From assembly GCF_016863315.1 (NCBI RefSeq), contig NZ_BOOQ01000031.1, forward strand, positions 124,001 through 188,000: DNA of 64,000 nucleotides, read 5' to 3'. How positions within the stretch are numbered: position 1 is the first letter of the stretch; each line of letters starts with the position of its first letter. The notes under the pieces were generated by a model. It was not told the origin of the DNA and searched no databases. It worked only from the letters and a program-made list of their open reading frames with translations. Positions 27,824 to 63,110 of the stretch are shown here, piece after piece. Both the position numbers and the translations under genes were made by a program. The DNA comes from Planotetraspora silvatica. Lineage in GTDB: Bacteria; Actinomycetota; Actinomycetes; Streptosporangiales; Streptosporangiaceae.

Positions 27824-29473
27824 GTGGCTTACCTGCCTGTTCCCCGGCTACCCGTCCCACGGCTGCCGGTTCTTCCCCGGCCACCCGGCGTACCCGCTCG
27901 CCGCGTGCGGGTGCTGCGTGACATCCCCGTCTGCATGCCGGACGGCGTGGCGTTGCTGACCGACCACTACATCCCCGTCGGCGCCCACCAGCCTCCGACC
28001 ATCCTGATCCGCACACCGTACGGCCGGGCCGGGGTCTTCGGCTGGCTGTACGGCTGGACGTTCGCGCGGCACGGTTTCCAGGTGATCATTCAGAGCTGCC
28101 GCGGCGGCTTCGGCTCCGGCGGCCTGCTCGACCCCCTGGGCGACGAGCGCGAGGACGGGCTCGCGACCGTCGGCTGGATGCGGGCCCAGCCGTGGTACGG
28201 CGGCAGCTTCGCCATGCACGGCCCCTCCTACCTCGGCTACAACCAGTGGGCGATCGCCTCGGAGACGCCCGATCTCGCGGCCATGGCGACCCAGGTCACC
28301 GCGTCGAACTTCCGGGACGCGGCCTACGTCGGCGGAGCGTTCGCGCTGGAGTCCACGCTCATCTGGACCACGCTGACCACCCAGATGGAGGGCCGCCTGG
28401 GCGGCATGGCGGCGCTGACCGCCCCGTGGCGGACGCGGCGCGCCGTCCTGTCGGGCCGCCCGCTTTCGGAACTCGACCTCGCGTCGGCGGGCCGGCCGAT
28501 GCCGTTCTTCCAGGACCTGCTGGCCAACCACTCCGACCCGGCCTCGCCGTACTGGAGGAAGAGGGACTTCTCGGCCACCGTGGGCGAAGTGACGGCCGAG
28601 GTCACGATGACCGGCGGCTGGTACGACGTCTTCCTGCCGTGGCAGCTCAAGGACTACGCGGCGATGCGGGCGGCCGGGCGGCAGCCGTACCTCACGATCG
28701 GGCCGTGGTACCACGCCGACATCCGGCACGGGAGGGCGTCGAACATCGACGCGCTCGCCTGGTTCCGCGCCCACCTCATGGGTGACACCTCCGGGCTGCG
28801 GGCGTCCCCCGTCCGGCTCTACGTGACCGGCGCGAACGAATGGCGGGACTTCCCCGACTGGCCGGTGGCGGGCACGCGGCCGGCCCGGTGGCACCTCCAG
28901 CCCGGTTTGGCTCTGTCGCGGGACAACCCGCGCGAATCCCCGCCCGACGCGTACCGGTACGACCCGGCCAACCCCACGCCGGTCATCGGCGGCCCCGTGC
29001 TCATCGGCAACTCCGAGCCGCGCGACAACCGGAGGCTGGAGTCCCGGAAGGACGTGCTCGTCTACACGTCGCACGTGCTGGCCGAGGACACCGACGTGAT
29101 CGGGCCGGTGACGGCCGAGTTGTACGTGCGGTCGAGCCGGGAGCACACCGACATGGTGGTGCGGATCTGCGACGTGCACCCCGACGGGTCGTCGATGAAC
29201 GTGTGCGAGGGGGTCAGGCGGCTGACGCCCTCGATCCCCGCAGACGGGGACGGCGTACGCCGGGTGGAGGTCGACCTGTGGCCCATCGGTCACCGGTTCC
29301 GCCGCGGCCACCGGATCCGCGTGCATGTGGCGAGCGGGGCCTACCCGCGGATCGCCCGCAATCCGGGGACCGGCGACCCGCTGCCCTTCGGCGCCACCAT
29401 GTACCCCTCCGACCAGGAGATCCTGCACTCCCCCGCCCACCCCAGCGCCGTGATCCTCCCCCACCTCCCTTAA
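27824..29473 (+). CDS. CocE/NonD family alpha/beta hydrolase (X-Pro dipeptidyl-peptidase type)
   Basis: A 549-residue serine hydrolase. Residues 30-290 are the catalytic alpha/beta domain with IPVCMPDGVALLTDHYIP, then QSCRGGFGSGG (oxyanion tyrosine region) and the nucleophile elbow HGPSYLGYNQW (about S135). Residues 320-545 are the jelly-roll domain (LVYTSHVLAEDTDVIGPVTA and HRFRRGHRIRVHVASGAYPR). It likely acts on esters, amides or acyl groups; cocaine esterase and glutaryl acylases share this layout. The N terminus has a proline-rich repeat, LPVPRLPVPRLPV. The GTG start has AAGGAGG five bases upstream. It is divergent from the trp attenuator. Confidence 0.9.
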   Translation: MAYLPVPRLPVPRLPVLPRPPGVPARRVRVLRDIPVCMPDGVALLTDHYIPVGAHQPPTILIRTPYGRAGVFGWLYGWTFARHGFQVIIQSCRGGFGSGGLLDPLGDEREDGLATVGWMRAQPWYGGSFAMHGPSYLGYNQWAIASETPDLAAMATQVTASNFRDAAYVGGAFALESTLIWTTLTTQMEGRLGGMAALTAPWRTRRAVLSGRPLSELDLASAGRPMPFFQDLLANHSDPASPYWRKRDFSATVGEVTAEVTMTGGWYDVFLPWQLKDYAAMRAAGRQPYLTIGPWYHADIRHGRASNIDALAWFRAHLMGDTSGLRASPVRLYVTGANEWRDFPDWPVAGTRPARWHLQPGLALSRDNPRESPPDAYRYDPANPTPVIGGPVLIGNSEPRDNRRLESRKDVLVYTSHVLAEDTDVIGPVTAELYVRSSREHTDMVVRICDVHPDGSSMNVCEGVRRLTPSIPADGDGVRRVEVDLWPIGHRFRRGHRIRVHVASGAYPRIARNPGTGDPLPFGATMYPSDQEILHSPAHPSAVILPHLP

Positions 29474-29508
29474 CCCCGGCCCTTAAACCCCGGCCCTTAA
29501 ACCCCGGC
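29468..29508. repeat. tandem 14-bp direct repeat at the array boundary
   Basis: CCTTAACCCCGGC is followed by two exact copies of CCTTAAACCCCGGC. The first copy contains the TAA stop codon of the CocE-type hydrolase gene and the last abuts the first unit of the 53-bp array at 29509. Its origin may be replication slippage, or duplication when the array was inserted. Confidence 0.85.
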
Positions 29509-30126
29509 GTGATCATGCAGGGGTTCGGAGATGTGCCCGCCGACCTGCCCGCTCTCTTGCCGTGATCATGCAGGGGTTCGGAGATGTGCCCGCCGACCTG
29601 CCCGCTCTCTTGCCGTGATCATGCACAAGTTCGGGGGCTGCGGGCGCGACCTGCGCGTCTCCCCGGCGTGATCATGCACAGGTTCGGCGGCGTGGACCCT
29701 GAGCTGCGTGAACGCCGACCGTGATCATGCGCAGATTCGTGATCGTACGGTCCGACCTGCGAATTCTCGGTTGGCGATCATGCACAACCCGCAAGAGCTC
29801 CGACGTGCGGATTCGCCGTACACGACACACCCGGCGAGCCAGCACATCCCTGACAGCCATGAGCAAACGGGCATGCGACAGAATTCGAGTACGACGGTCG
29901 CGAGTGCATGATCACGGTCGGCGTTCGCGCAGCTCAGGGTCCACGCCGCCGAACTTGTGCATGATCACGGTCAGCGTTCACGCAGCTCAGGGCCTTGCCG
30001 CCGAACCTGTGCATGATCACGCCGGGGGGATGCGCAGGTCGCGCCCGCAGCCCCCGAACTTGTGCATGATCACGGCGGGAGAACGGGCAGGTCATGGCAG
30101 GCGTTCACGAACCTGTGCATGATCAC
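29509..30126. repeat. palindromic array of 53-bp-period repeats, locus 1
   Basis: The unit begins GTGATCATGCACAGGTTCGG and carries GACCTGC about 30 bases in. Forward units start at 29509, 29562, 29615, 29668, 29721 and 29774, each exactly 53 bp apart. Reverse-orientation units (CATGATCAC first) lie at 29907, 29960, 30012, 30065 and 30118, spaced 53, 52, 53 and 53. Forward units 3 and 4 are near-perfect reverse complements of the reverse units at 30012-30073 and 29907-29968, in mirrored order, so the locus is one long inverted repeat around 29783-29906. The first two forward units are identical. It is not CRISPR: the segments between the conserved heads are related to each other. Confidence 0.9.
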
Positions 30127-30253
30127 GGCGGGGGGTTTGGAAAGGGGGTAAGGGTCGCTCGTCGCGGCAACACGACCGTTTGGCGATCAGTGATCCCTCC
30201 CCTTCACCGCGGACTTTACGCTGCGGAGCAGTCCGTGTCCGAAGGAGCGTGCG

Positions 30254-30457
30254 ATGACCACACCCCGCACTGATCGCAGTCCATGGAACTGGTTGCTCCT
30301 GCTGCCGATCGCCATTCCCCTGATACCGGCCCTGTTCAACGCGGTTGAACCGCGATTGTTCGGCATCCCGCTGTTCTACTGGCTGCAACTCGGCTTCGTC
30401 CTCGTCAGCGTCGCGGCGACCCTGGTCGTCTATCACATGACGCGGAGGGCCCGATGA
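30254..30457 (+). CDS. DUF3311 small membrane protein, symporter partner
   Basis: A 67-residue protein with two hydrophobic helices (WNWLLLLPIAIPLIPALF and LFYWLQLGFVLVSVAATLVV). It matches the DUF3311 type that commonly precedes sodium:solute symporters and may be an accessory subunit. The start has AAGGAG at seven bases. Its end overlaps the symporter start by 4 bp (ATGA). Confidence 0.88.
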   Translation: MTTPRTDRSPWNWLLLLPIAIPLIPALFNAVEPRLFGIPLFYWLQLGFVLVSVAATLVVYHMTRRAR

Positions 30458-32040
30458 CCACCGAGATCGTCATCTTCGCCGTCCTCTTCCTGATCGTCAG
30501 CGGCATGGGCTTCGTGGCCTCCCGCTGGCGGCGGCCCGACGACATCGCCAGCCTGAACGAATGGGGGCTCGGCGGCCGCAACTTCGGTTCGTGGATCACG
30601 TGGTTCCTCGTGGGCGGCGACCTCTACACGGCCTACACGTTCGTGGCGGTGCCCGCCCTGCTGTTCGGGGCCGGCGCGACGGGCTTCTTCGCCGTGCCGT
30701 ACACGGTGATCGTCTATCCCCTGGTCATGATCGTGCTGATCCGGCTCTGGTCGGTGTCGCACGTGCACGGGCTCGTCACCCCAGCCGACTTCGTGCGGGC
30801 GAGGTTCGGATCGCCGACCCTGGCCCTTCTCGTCGCCATCACCGGCATCGTCGCGACCATGCCGTACATCGCGCTCCAGCTCGTCGGCATCGAGGCGGTC
30901 CTCAAGACGATGGGGGTGACCGGTGATCTGCCGCTCATCATCGCCTTCGCGATCCTGGCCGCCTACACCTACCAGTCCGGGCTGCGCGCCCCCGCGCTGA
31001 TCGCCTTCGTCAAGGACGCGCTCATCTACGTGGTGATCCTCGTGGCGGTCATCTACATCCCGACGCAGCTGGGCGGCTGGGGATCGATCTTCGACGCGGC
31101 CCAGGCCAAGTTCGACAAAACCCCCGCGGCCACCGACGGCATCCTGCTCAACGCCAACAACCAGCTCCAGTACGTCACGCTCGCGCTGGGTTCGGCGCTG
31201 GCGCTGTTCCTCTACCCCCACAGCGTCACGGGCGTCCTGGCCTCCAAGAACCGCGACGTGATCAAACGCAACATGTCCGCGCTGCCCGCCTACAGCGTGC
31301 TGCTGGGCCTGATCGCGCTGCTCGGCTACATGGCCATCGCCGCGGGGGTGACGCCCATCGGCACCGACGTGAACACGGTCGTGCCGCAGCTGTTCGACAA
31401 GATGTTCCCCGACTGGTTCGCCGGGGTGGCGTTCGCCGCGGTCGGCATCGGTGCGCTCGTACCCGCCGCGATCATGTCGATCGCCGCCGCCAACCTGTTC
31501 ACGAGGAACATCTACCGGGAGTACATCAACCGGGACGCCACGGACGCGCAGCAGGCGTCGGCCAGCAAGATCGCCTCGCTGGTCGTGAAGGTCGGCGCCG
31601 TGCTGTTCATCCTGCTCATCGATCCGCAGTTCTCGATCGACCTGCAGCTGATCGGCGGCGTCATCATCCTCCAGACGCTTCCGTCCGTCGCCCTCGGGCT
31701 GTTCACCCGCTGGTTCCACCGGGCCGGCCTGATCGCCGGATGGATCGCCGGCATGGGGGCGGGCATGCTGATGCTCTACAACGTCGCCAACCCCGCGACC
31801 CACCACGACCACTTCGGCGGTTCGGCGTTCGCCCTGTCCAAGCTGGGCCTGGACACCAAGATGACGATCTACGCCGGCTTCCTCGCGCTCGCCGTCAACC
31901 TGATCGTCGCGCTGCTCGGCACGGTCATCGCCAAGTCCGCCAAGGTCGTCGACGGTCCCGACGCCACCCGTACGGACGACTACACGGCCGACCAGGGCGA
32001 CCCCCGCGTCCACGACCTGGAGGTCACCAGCTCCACGTGA
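30454..32040 (+). CDS. sodium:solute symporter family protein (monocarboxylate uptake-like)
   Basis: A 528-residue inner-membrane transporter of the SSS family with about 13 hydrophobic segments. Family features include LGGRNFGSWITWFLVGGDLY, then VTPADFVRARFG, GDLPLIIAFAILAAYTYQSG and LFLYPHSVTGVLASKNRD. The pairing with a DUF3311 protein and the overall sequence resemble the MctC/MctP group, which takes up acetate, propionate or pyruvate with sodium or protons; the substrate here is inferred. A strong hairpin follows at 32073. Confidence 0.92.
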   Translation: MTTEIVIFAVLFLIVSGMGFVASRWRRPDDIASLNEWGLGGRNFGSWITWFLVGGDLYTAYTFVAVPALLFGAGATGFFAVPYTVIVYPLVMIVLIRLWSVSHVHGLVTPADFVRARFGSPTLALLVAITGIVATMPYIALQLVGIEAVLKTMGVTGDLPLIIAFAILAAYTYQSGLRAPALIAFVKDALIYVVILVAVIYIPTQLGGWGSIFDAAQAKFDKTPAATDGILLNANNQLQYVTLALGSALALFLYPHSVTGVLASKNRDVIKRNMSALPAYSVLLGLIALLGYMAIAAGVTPIGTDVNTVVPQLFDKMFPDWFAGVAFAAVGIGALVPAAIMSIAAANLFTRNIYREYINRDATDAQQASASKIASLVVKVGAVLFILLIDPQFSIDLQLIGGVIILQTLPSVALGLFTRWFHRAGLIAGWIAGMGAGMLMLYNVANPATHHDHFGGSAFALSKLGLDTKMTIYAGFLALAVNLIVALLGTVIAKSAKVVDGPDATRTDDYTADQGDPRVHDLEVTSST

Positions 32041-39454: not shown

Positions 39455-40151
39455 TGACGTTCCCCATCTGTTGCCGGCGCCGAGGTGATCCCGGAGTGAA
39501 ACCCGTCGAACGCTAGCCAGCTCTCTCCCGTCCCAGCTGAATGCCACCAAAATCCTGAATGTCCGATTTATTAATCACTAGGACACCCCCACCCCCTCGT
39601 CGTGATCATGCACAGGTTCGTGATCAAGCGCCTTGAGCTGCCCCCACCCCGAGCGTGATCATGCACGGGTTCGGGGAAGTGCCCGCTGACCTGCTCATTC
39701 ACGTTTCGTGATCATGCACACGTTCTGAATCAGCATCCTCGACCTGCGGCGATGTCGTCCGTGACCATGCACGGAGTCCTCGATGTGGCCCCGAGCGGGC
39801 GAAACGATGCTCGTGATCATGCGATCCACGCTGCGGCCCGGCCGCCGCATGGGCTCCCGATTCATCGCGGCGAACGCGCACGCCGCAGAGCTACGGCCGC
39901 TCCGCCGTACTCATGCACGGCCCTGATCCAGATCGGAGCAGGCAGGCCGATCGCCCAGCCGTACATGATCACGAGCGTGGGAAGCGCAGGCCAGGCGGCG
40001 CATTCCCGAAACCGTACATGATCACGGCCGAACAACACCAGGCCAAGGCCCATGATCACGAACCTGTGCATGATCACGAAACATGAAGCGGGAGGTCGGT
40101 GGGCACTTCTCCGAACCTGTGCATGATCACGGCGGGAAAGGGTGTGCATGA
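39455..40151. other. intergenic region, 697 bp, holding palindromic array 2
   Basis: No gene is supported. 39455-39600 contains the promoter region of the PHP/Asp-box gene, with an AT-rich stretch around 39550-39580. The rest is occupied by the second 53-bp-period array. The open frames in it are repeat artefacts. Confidence 0.6.
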
Positions 40152-40155
40152 TCAC
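39602..40155. repeat. palindromic array of 53-bp-period repeats, locus 2
   Basis: This is the same unit family as at 29.5 kb. Forward heads GTGATCATGCAC start at 39602, 39655, 39708, 39761 (GTGACCATGCAC) and 39813, spaced 53, 53, 53 and 52. Reverse heads CATGATCAC lie at 39964, 40017, 40051, 40069, 40122 and 40147. The forward unit at 39655 is largely the reverse complement of the reverse unit at 40069-40130 (shared AAGTGCCC, GACCT and GTTTC segments), so this too is an inverted repeat centred near 39890. Units are more divergent than at locus 1. The last reverse head overlaps the stop codon of the DUF3592 gene. Confidence 0.88.
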
Positions 40156-40565
40156 GGGCGGAGGAGGGTGAGGAGGGCGGCGGAGAGGATCGCCAGGGCT
40201 GTGCCGAGAAAGATCATTCCGGCGCGGAATCCGTTGTTCGTCGTGTCGTCGATGCGGACCCGGGTAGGTCTGGCCGGGTCGTACAGAACCGGAACCCTGT
40301 CTCCCGGCATGGCCGGAGGCGGGGTGCCGCCCAGCGGGGACTCGGCCTCCACCCGCTGGCCGTAGACCGTCGTGAAGCGCACTGTCGGGTGGTAGACGAT
40401 GCGGCCGTTGCGGGACCGGCTCGGGCGCAGCCGGACGACCTCCCCCTCCACCCGCTCTGCGCGCCTGCGGAACCGGCGGGCGCCGATGCCCAGCCCGCCG
40501 CCGACCAGAGCGGTGACGACGCCGACGACGCCGAGAACGAGGGGTAACAGGAGGTTCGGTGGCAC
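40152..40565 (-). CDS. DUF3592 domain membrane protein
   Basis: A 137-residue protein. An N-terminal membrane helix (LLLPLVLGVVGVVTALVGGG) is followed by a soluble beta domain (residues 35-105) with RAERVEGEVVRLRPSRSRNG, then YHPTVRFTT and GDRVPVLYDPARPTRVRID, the DUF3592 pattern. A second helix (MIFLGTALAILSAALLTLL) ends the chain. Function unknown in the family. The stop codon lies within the last half-unit of array 2. Confidence 0.88.
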   Translation of the reverse strand: MPPNLLLPLVLGVVGVVTALVGGGLGIGARRFRRRAERVEGEVVRLRPSRSRNGRIVYHPTVRFTTVYGQRVEAESPLGGTPPPAMPGDRVPVLYDPARPTRVRIDDTTNNGFRAGMIFLGTALAILSAALLTLLRP

Positions 40566-44243: not shown

Positions 44244-46517
<2,274 letters not shown>

Positions 46518-62322: not shown

Positions 62323-63110
62323 CGCTGACCATCTCCGGGCTGAAGGTCTCCATCGGCGAGGCCGAGATCCTGCGCGGCGTCGATATCGCCGTCGGCGCCG
62401 GCCATGTCCACGGCCTGGCGGGCGAGAGCGGCTCGGGCAAGACCGTCACCGGGCTCGCCGTGCTGGGCCTGCTCCCCCACGGCTCCCGTACGGCGGGCAC
62501 GATCCAGCTGGAGGGCCGGGACCTGCTGGCCATGCCGGCCAAGCAGCTCAACGCGGTACGCGGGGCCGAGATCGCGATGGTCTTCCAGGACCCGGCCACC
62601 AGCCTGCACCCCATGGTGACGGTGGGCGTCCAGCTCACCGAGCACATGCGCCACCACCTCGGCGTCGGCAGGAAGGAGGCGCGGGAGCGGGCCCTCGGCC
62701 TGCTCGCGAAGGTGCGGATCCCCTCTCCGGAGACGGCCGTCGACCGCTACCCCCACCAGTTCTCCGGCGGCATGCGCCAGCGGATCGCCATCGCCGTCGC
62801 CCTGGCCTGCGAGCCCAAGGTGCTCATTGCCGACGAGCCGACGACCGCGCTCGACGTGACCGTCCAGGCGGGCATCCTCCGGCTGCTGCGCGGGCTCTGC
62901 GACGACCTCGGCCTGGCCGTGCTCCTCGTGACCCACGACCTCGGGGTGATGTCGGCCGTCGCCGACGAGGTCAGCGTGATGAAGGACGGGCTCGTCGTGG
63001 AGACGGGACCGCGCGGGCAGGTGCTCACGGAGCCCCGCCACGCGTACACCCGCACCCTGCTGGAGTCCCTGCCAGGGGACGACCACAAGCTTCCGCAAGA
63101 GGAGCGGTGA
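62319..63110 (+). CDS. ABC transporter ATP-binding protein (DppD/OppD-like)
   Basis: A 263-residue ATPase. Walker A is GESGSGKT, the signature is [20 protein letters not shown], Walker B is [12 protein letters not shown], and the H-loop is [11 protein letters not shown]. The GTG start overlaps the DppC-like stop by 4 bp. It is shorter than OppD (about 330), lacking the C-terminal oligopeptide extension. Confidence 0.93.

Follow-up and report, generated by a model that had tools for sequence, protein, structure and literature searches.

Inward-facing arrays of 53-bp phased units at gene ends in Planotetraspora: a family of dispersed elements and their possible role as polar transcription barriers

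Tandem, directional protein sites are found after eukaryotic rRNA genes, where the TTF-I/Sal-box arrays halt a polymerase. Rho-dependent terminators and roadblocks have a C-rich, G-poor stretch ahead of the obstacle, and transposon ends may look much like the elements described here, with two inward arms and repeated sites. We know of no bacterial example of a roadblock array that is genome-wide, multi-site, bidirectional and dialect-bearing. REP sequences and BIMEs are present as hundreds of intergenic copies, inverted and species-specific, and the account in PMC2817692 reports proposals that they bind protein and act in termination or chromosome organisation. The actinobacterial intergenic repeats known as MIRUs include some that are 53 bp long (PMC4213456), and the DUS of the Neisseriaceae is described as a repeated word that shifts genome-wide among related species (PMC3630211); for Rho-dependent terminators and protein roadblocks, the accounts in PMC10310618 and PMC6407284 served as comparison. 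Among the papers listed by our literature searches none describes a 53-bp inward array element, and no Rfam match was found at E up to 1 across positions 29000–30700 around array 1, in agreement with an earlier note on this DNA, which knew of no described element of this architecture.

Array 1 lies at 29509–30126 of the window, by which we mean the whole 64,000-nucleotide stretch of Planotetraspora silvatica DNA that was analysed. Head positions define a left arm of six forward units (29509–29826, plus strand), with heads beginning at 29509, 29562, 29615, 29668, 29721 and 29774 and every step 53 bp; a centre (29827–29862) in which no unit was recognised; and a right arm (29863–30126, minus strand) of five reverse units, with heads at 29904–29915, 29957–29968, 30009–30020, 30062–30073 and 30115–30126, in steps of 53, 52, 53 and 53 bp. 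These coordinates bear out the count of six forward units at 53 bp and five reverse units at 52–53 bp given in the earlier note. As judged by composition, the arms are preceded by leaders: the left one (29479–29508, plus strand) is C-rich and G-poor and contains 14-bp CCTTAAACCCCGG repeats, and the right one (30127–30156, minus strand) is C-rich when read into the array. Three 14-bp repeats (CCCTTAAACCCCGG) at 29467–29508 make up the left leader. The left neighbour, a gene for an X-Pro dipeptidyl-peptidase-like hydrolase (27905–29473, plus strand), has its 3' end toward the array, 36 bp off, and the right end of the array is 128 bp upstream of the start of a gene for a DUF3311 protein (30254–30457, plus strand), which is followed by a sodium:solute symporter gene (30454–32040).

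The head GTGATCATGCAC(A/G)(G/A)GTTCG, which had been ascribed to every unit, is exact in six of the 11, but the other five deviate: the heads at 29509 and 29562 carry GCAGGGG, that at 29721 carries GCGCAGA, and the innermost units (29774, plus; 29905, minus) are without TTCG. The strong mirrored matches amount to two pairs of units, each 95% identical (counting the reverse units from the centre, unit 3 matches the fourth and unit 4 the second), and do not make up a fully nested palindrome; units 1 and 2 have the same sequence and lie in tandem. Nor does the locus stand alone: a second mirrored array lies in the window and the 8.66-Mb genome contains 698 exact 12-mer heads (360 forward and 338 reverse, against 0 in the reversed control). 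The second array (39602–40155) is also two-armed, with forward heads from 39602 and reverse heads to 40155. By composition its left leader lies at 39572–39601 (plus strand) and its right leader at 40156–40185 (minus strand), the latter being the neighbour's coding sequence, and its outermost head holds the stop codon of a DUF3592 gene (40152–40565, minus strand). Over the window as a whole, 33 heads were found at up to two mismatches, against 4.1 ± 2.2 in shuffles, and 33 was reached in 0 of 100 shuffles.

The 53-bp spacing and the inward order recur genome-wide and genus-wide, so that local chance, the outcome for which the earlier note had proposed a genome search, does not account for them. 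We counted 24 arrays in 836 kb of P. silvatica sequence, and scaling by array density or by head count gives roughly 110–250 for the whole genome. More than 19 heads per strand were present only in the five Planotetraspora genomes and in G059 among the 200 genomes of the family searched, and of the 297 genomes of the order, 7 contained two heads 53 bp (± 1) apart, namely these six and, as a lone pair, G186; leaving that pair aside, only Planotetraspora and one neighbouring genus were seen to have the 53-bp layout. A scan of named sequences gave at least 92 stretches with a 53-bp pair, all from Planotetraspora among the 80 matches listed. These named loci were picked for having such a pair and partly come from the same species as our P. 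mira and sp. A-T 1434 stretches, and the sets are therefore not independent. Spread through the class was rejected, as 268 genomes from other families carry at most two matches each, mostly a single word, GTGATCATGCAGGACTTC, among the matches listed, which resembles coding sequence. Carriage by viruses was rejected for the viral contigs searched, a 53-bp pair being present in 0 of them.

Copy number differs between species, with 231 exact heads in P. phitsanulokensis, 623 in P. mira and 698 in P. silvatica; phased heads in P. phitsanulokensis numbered 20 in 400 kb (stretch L248–L267), compared with 82 in 362 kb. This species seems to be losing the array system, and because it has far fewer arrays they are probably not essential. 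Related heads are present in genus g50 (GTGATCATGCAGTTGTTCG, within hairpin units) and in G089 of genus g48 (GTGATCATGCAATCGTTCG). Some of the hairpin-unit relatives (L219–L225 and L227, from G050 and G090, and those of G089) are linked in chains by short, partly palindromic linkers. The hairpin-unit elements of other genera may be ancestral to the 53-bp layout or a cousin of it.

The consensus of 385 units has CGTGATCATGCACRGGTTCG at offsets −1 to 18, then box B after a variable segment, then another variable segment with a weak AAACC; box A is GTGATCATGCACRGGTTCG, and box B is yGACCTGCGC at offsets 32–39. Same-strand neighbours were spaced by 53 bp in 543 of 638 cases, by 52 in 53, by 54 in 7 and by 51 in 3, in species sets that overlap. 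A 10.6-bp AT rhythm within the unit was not significant (p 0.14), and restriction avoidance was rejected, TGATCA being seen 240 times outside arrays against 250 expected in 628 kb, which is no depletion. The general layout is a C-rich, G-poor leader, a few 53-bp units, a centre and then the mirror image, some arrays being one-armed. Two full arms are present in about 75 of 161 arrays. Heads in reverse-then-forward order turned up in 2 of the 161, a count in which one-armed arrays pass by default, heads were taken only if exact or in phase, and a stray reverse head ahead of three forward heads (346753 on P. silvatica contig C2) is omitted. Along C2, one-armed arrays seemed by eye to alternate in polarity, a pattern absent in sp. 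A-T 1434.

Taken modulo 53, the gap between the innermost 11-mers was 13 bp in 20 of 94 arrays and 12–14 bp in 27 of 94, against 5.3 expected; among gaps of at least 50 bp, 12–14 was found in 7 of 39 against 2.2 expected, with orthologues kept in the count. A gap of 29 was present in 11 of the 94, nine of them from sp. A-T 1434 and sharing a common centre, which the other two (597647 on P. silvatica C2, and L103) are without, and a model built from the nine centres gave seven matches, all within the arrays of that genome. At four loci (L074, L083, L235 and L089) the inward arms flank one gene and not one gap; in L089 (2333–4125) they are 1.8 kb apart and enclose a small excisionase-like helix-turn-helix gene, assigned by eye, perhaps an inserted element.

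The arrays are like REP/BIME elements in their many copies, extragenic location and inverted arrangement, but unlike them in the long non-palindromic head, the 53-bp tandem phasing of each arm, the polar C-rich leader and the inward order. A REP/BIME unit is a short palindrome that can fold into a hairpin, whereas the Planotetraspora unit is asymmetric with only weak excess pairing. A RAYT/REP system was also rejected, as among the six genomes with the layout Y1_Tnp (PF01797) gave 0 matches in G000, G077, G104, G125 and G059, and 4 in G022. MIRUs were compared by unit length, and the arrays differ from them in that conservation is limited to the head and box B, the spacers diverge, the arms are mirrored, and it is the spacing and not the sequence that is constant. 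Unlike DUS, the arrays are mostly phased and beside genes and are not scattered single words; exact 11-mers out of phase numbered 3 in 836 kb of P. silvatica sequence and, for sp. A-T 1434, 23 in 522 kb, and a DNA uptake sequence made up of scattered single copies was rejected on these counts. We agree with the earlier note that this is not a CRISPR array, as the segments between heads are related and share box B, the arms face inward and there are hundreds of heads.

Composition outside the arms is polar. In the four genomes sampled, 115 of 121 arms had more C than G over the 30 nt just beyond their outermost head, compared with 64 of 121 at −150 to −121, and one-armed arrays had a C>G leader in 21 of 22 cases against 10 of 22 in the control. 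The skew rises from 0.02 to 0.51 toward the array, being 0.51 at −15 to −1, 0.32 at −30 to −16, 0.12–0.18 at −60 to −31 and below 0.1 farther out; downstream of array-free plus-strand genes, C is 0.33–0.38 and G 0.29–0.36. The arrays are like Rho-dependent terminators in having a C-rich, G-poor sense strand ahead of the proposed stop point, although the skew extends over about 30–60 nt, which may fall short of the usual Rho-site length of some 70–80 nt. Unlike Rho terminators and roadblocks, they are genome-wide, multi-site and bidirectional, with a dialect in each species.

Arrays tend to lie at the 3' ends of genes. Ten of the P. silvatica arrays are in convergent gaps, 13 in co-directional and 1 in a divergent gap, against raw counts of 70, 244 and 125 for all gaps of at least 60 bp. 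The gene end adjoining the outside of an arm was a 3' end in 25 and a 5' end in 11 of 36 P. silvatica arms (24 against 4 within 100 bp), and for the 159 named-locus arms it was 3' in 102, 5' in 44 and undecided in 13 (97 against 18 within 100 bp). In 10 of the 36 and 24 of the 159 arms, the outermost head supplies the adjoining gene with its TGA stop codon, always at a 3' end and never on a 5' side. In these respects the arrays resemble the TTF-I/Sal-box arrays, with tandem directional sites after gene ends; TTF-I is eukaryotic and serves one locus type, and homology is not implied. Genes were called with a codon-score finder, which missed the DUF3311 gene beside array 1, so gene starts and small genes are uncertain. 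The mirror layout is not a mere by-product of convergent genes, because two-armed arrays exist in co-directional gaps too (5 of 13 in P. silvatica). One-armed arrays in co-directional gaps show no clear bias toward the arm adjoining the 3' end of the upstream gene, the ratio of this arm to the other being 4:4 in P. silvatica, 2:2 in P. mira, 5:4 in sp. A-T 1434 and 15:8 in the named loci.

Intrinsic terminators were also considered at these gene ends. The median hairpin at array-bearing ends in P. silvatica was −11.9 kcal/mol, against −18.8 at array-free convergent ends, and −17 kcal/mol was reached by 5% of 21 array ends against 61% of 79 array-free convergent ends. Weaker hairpins at array ends were seen in four of five sets (raw p 8e-5 to 0.002; P. 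phitsanulokensis, p 0.65), but after correction for composition the deficit was not significant in any of the five (p 0.21–0.95). An intrinsic terminator was rejected as an explanation of the arrays, as few array ends have a strong hairpin directly after the gene, though the deficit relative to array-free ends loses significance after that correction.

Between species, arrays mostly stay in place while head letters shift genome-wide as dialects. In P. mira, 96.6% identical in long alignments, 11 of 11 P. silvatica arrays from the shared stretch have a counterpart in the matching position. Counting sites with both flanks mapped, arrays were present at 5 of 5 orthologous sites in P. thailandica, 3 of 5 in sp. 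A-T 1434 and 10 of 13 in P. phitsanulokensis, where they are shortened and one (346757 in P. silvatica) is in the opposite orientation. Arrays 180362 and 235270 are one-armed in all mapped species; array 271653 has one arm in four species but two in sp. A-T 1434, and array 244070 shows the opposite pattern. At orthologous sites the commonest head is CAGG-TTCG in P. silvatica and GAAG-TTCG in P. thailandica, and ends in TTCC in sp. A-T 1434. At head position 11, 132 of 153 P. silvatica heads have C and 35 of 47 P. thailandica heads have G; at position 18, 122 of 153 P. silvatica heads have G and 142 of 177 sp. A-T 1434 heads have C. That hundreds of sites have been altered in place fits a single recognising molecule with a drifting taste.

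Constraint within the unit was assessed in 60 of 70 P. silvatica and P. mira units, namely those paired at 70% identity or more. The core head (offsets 0–9) had 5 differences in 600 sites, positions 19–31 differed by 13.2%, box B by 6.3% and positions 40–52 by 12%, against 6.2% at fourfold sites and 2.5–5.6% in array-free gaps (the convergent value coming from 5 gaps). Purine offsets 10, 12 and 14 vary in 12–14 of the 60 pairs, beside nearly invariant bases. All 38 paired intervals were of the same length despite 189 substitutions, where 15–28 indels would be expected, although this count takes in only intervals between paired units and the pairing rule favours ungapped ones; the interval at 62899 is 52 bp in P. 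silvatica and 53 in P. mira. Spacing that is kept while the spacers change faster than silent sites points to a sequence-specific DNA-binding protein.

Dependencies between columns bear on the same question. Across 516 units the eleven strongest were all between adjacent columns (0.245 for 43–44, against a null maximum of 0.030), and five of the 40 listed span more than 5 columns, at 0.032–0.039. Excess pairing was greatest for columns 40–51 (z 3.3) and then 41–50 (z 2.7). An RNA hairpin within the unit was rejected, as the strongest dependencies are adjacent and these long-range signals weak. The earlier note had suggested that protein binds in an ordered way along helically phased sites, and the fixed spacing with drifting spacers, together with dependencies strongest between neighbouring bases, agrees with this. 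Its other suggestion, a giant structured RNA, fared less well: the two-armed arrays do fold below shuffles (z −9.6 to −26.5 for 12 P. silvatica arrays, against a mean z of −1.6 for 35 single arms), but several lone arms are kept single across species and long-range covariation is weak. In-register RNA pairing was rejected as a requirement, some one-armed arrays being conserved as such. Units at equal rank, counted from outside or inside, had a similarity of 0.462 against 0.399 when permuted (0 of 1000 permutations, 22 arrays), and this persists without array 1, so the arms either swap sequence or share descent in register. The mirrored similarity that had been noted is thus very strong in array 1 but weaker as a general trend elsewhere, and in sp. 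A-T 1434 no opposite-arm pair reached 0.65 in any of 8 such arrays.

We tentatively propose, at somewhat short of even confidence, that each arm is a polar transcription barrier composed of a Rho-loading leader and a phased protein roadblock, two arms insulating both ways. Each arm would begin beside a gene with the C-rich, G-poor leader, followed by a few 53-bp units (five helical turns) with boxes A and B, which a putative sequence-specific DNA-binding protein would fill cooperatively. RNA polymerase exiting the gene would copy the leader into RNA, on which Rho might load, then run head-on into the first box A, come to a halt at the protein array and be released. A two-armed element would then be a bidirectional terminator or insulator, acting on transcription from either side because its arms point inward. 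We favour a polar barrier: each arm has what a Rho-assisted roadblock would need, in the order in which a polymerase entering there would meet it. Several observations tell against this reading: the hairpin deficit at array ends is not significant once composition is corrected, one-armed arrays show no clear arm preference in co-directional gaps, array 1 stops 128 bp short of a gene start, P. phitsanulokensis has far fewer arrays, the leader skew may be short for a Rho site, and two-armed arrays could fold as long hairpins as well. It is possible, though we regard it with considerable doubt, that the arrays are a bacterial class of genome-wide bidirectional roadblock insulators, with Rho-loading leaders and helically phased polar arms, whose dedicated DNA-binding reader drifts in specificity between species, the sites following in place, and which P. 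phitsanulokensis seems to be losing.

The main rival, which we consider unlikely, is that the arrays organise the chromosome or its topology, bound by a nucleoid protein, an SMC- or gyrase-like factor or a loop anchor. Phasing, polarity, dialect and position are evidence for it as much as for a barrier, the placement between convergent genes would follow from the build-up of positive supercoils there and the lack of promoters, and a role of this kind is among those proposed for BIMEs in PMC2817692. The arrays on P. silvatica C2 are somewhat evener than random (CV 0.61, p 0.018, in a post hoc test), but those of sp. A-T 1434 look clumped by eye, P. phitsanulokensis has far fewer, and topology alone does not predict a C-rich leader that is polar and present in one-armed arrays too.

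That the arrays are relics of non-autonomous mobile elements, old transposon ends without cargo or present function, strikes us as improbable. The inward arms with repeated sites do resemble such ends, nine sp. A-T 1434 arrays have a similar 29-nt centre, and at the four loci mentioned above the arms enclose a gene; against this stand the shared positions of arrays (11 of 11 for P. mira; for P. thailandica, 5 of 5 of those mapped), the strongly constrained head, the absence of a Y1 transposase from the P. silvatica genome (the Y1 family being the one searched) and the lack of a viral contig with a 53-bp pair. Rather improbable too is an element acting as RNA, whether as 3' UTR repeats or as a long two-arm hairpin bound or cut in stability, processing or as double-stranded RNA. 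It would explain why two-armed arrays fold far below shuffles and single arms slightly so, and why mirrored-rank units are more alike than permuted ones, but not why arrays 180362 and 235270 stay one-armed in all mapped species, and a constant 53-nt spacing is unexpected for RNA; the weak column pairing and the lack of an Rfam match also argue against it. We give very little credence to a recognition watermark, in which a word in species dialect would serve DNA uptake, transfer or self-marking. Its appeal lies in species-wide dialects like those described for the Neisseriaceae DUS (PMC3630211), but the word is mostly in phased arrays, with the few out-of-phase 11-mers given above, and neither the 53-bp phasing nor the leader nor the gene-end position would be needed.

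If the barrier model is true, bacteria own dedicated insulators in the form of polar, phased, bidirectional protein arrays with a coevolving reader. Both the separation of neighbouring transcription units and the joint change in specificity of a DNA-binding protein and its hundreds of sites would then become testable within one genus, the dialects providing ready-made matched and mismatched sites and P. phitsanulokensis a natural case of reduction. If instead the arrays organise the chromosome, they would be a new class of site for that role.

One further repeat was seen in the window, at 44808–45397, where a 288-bp sequence is present in two tandem copies that are 88% alike and probably represent repeated protein domains.
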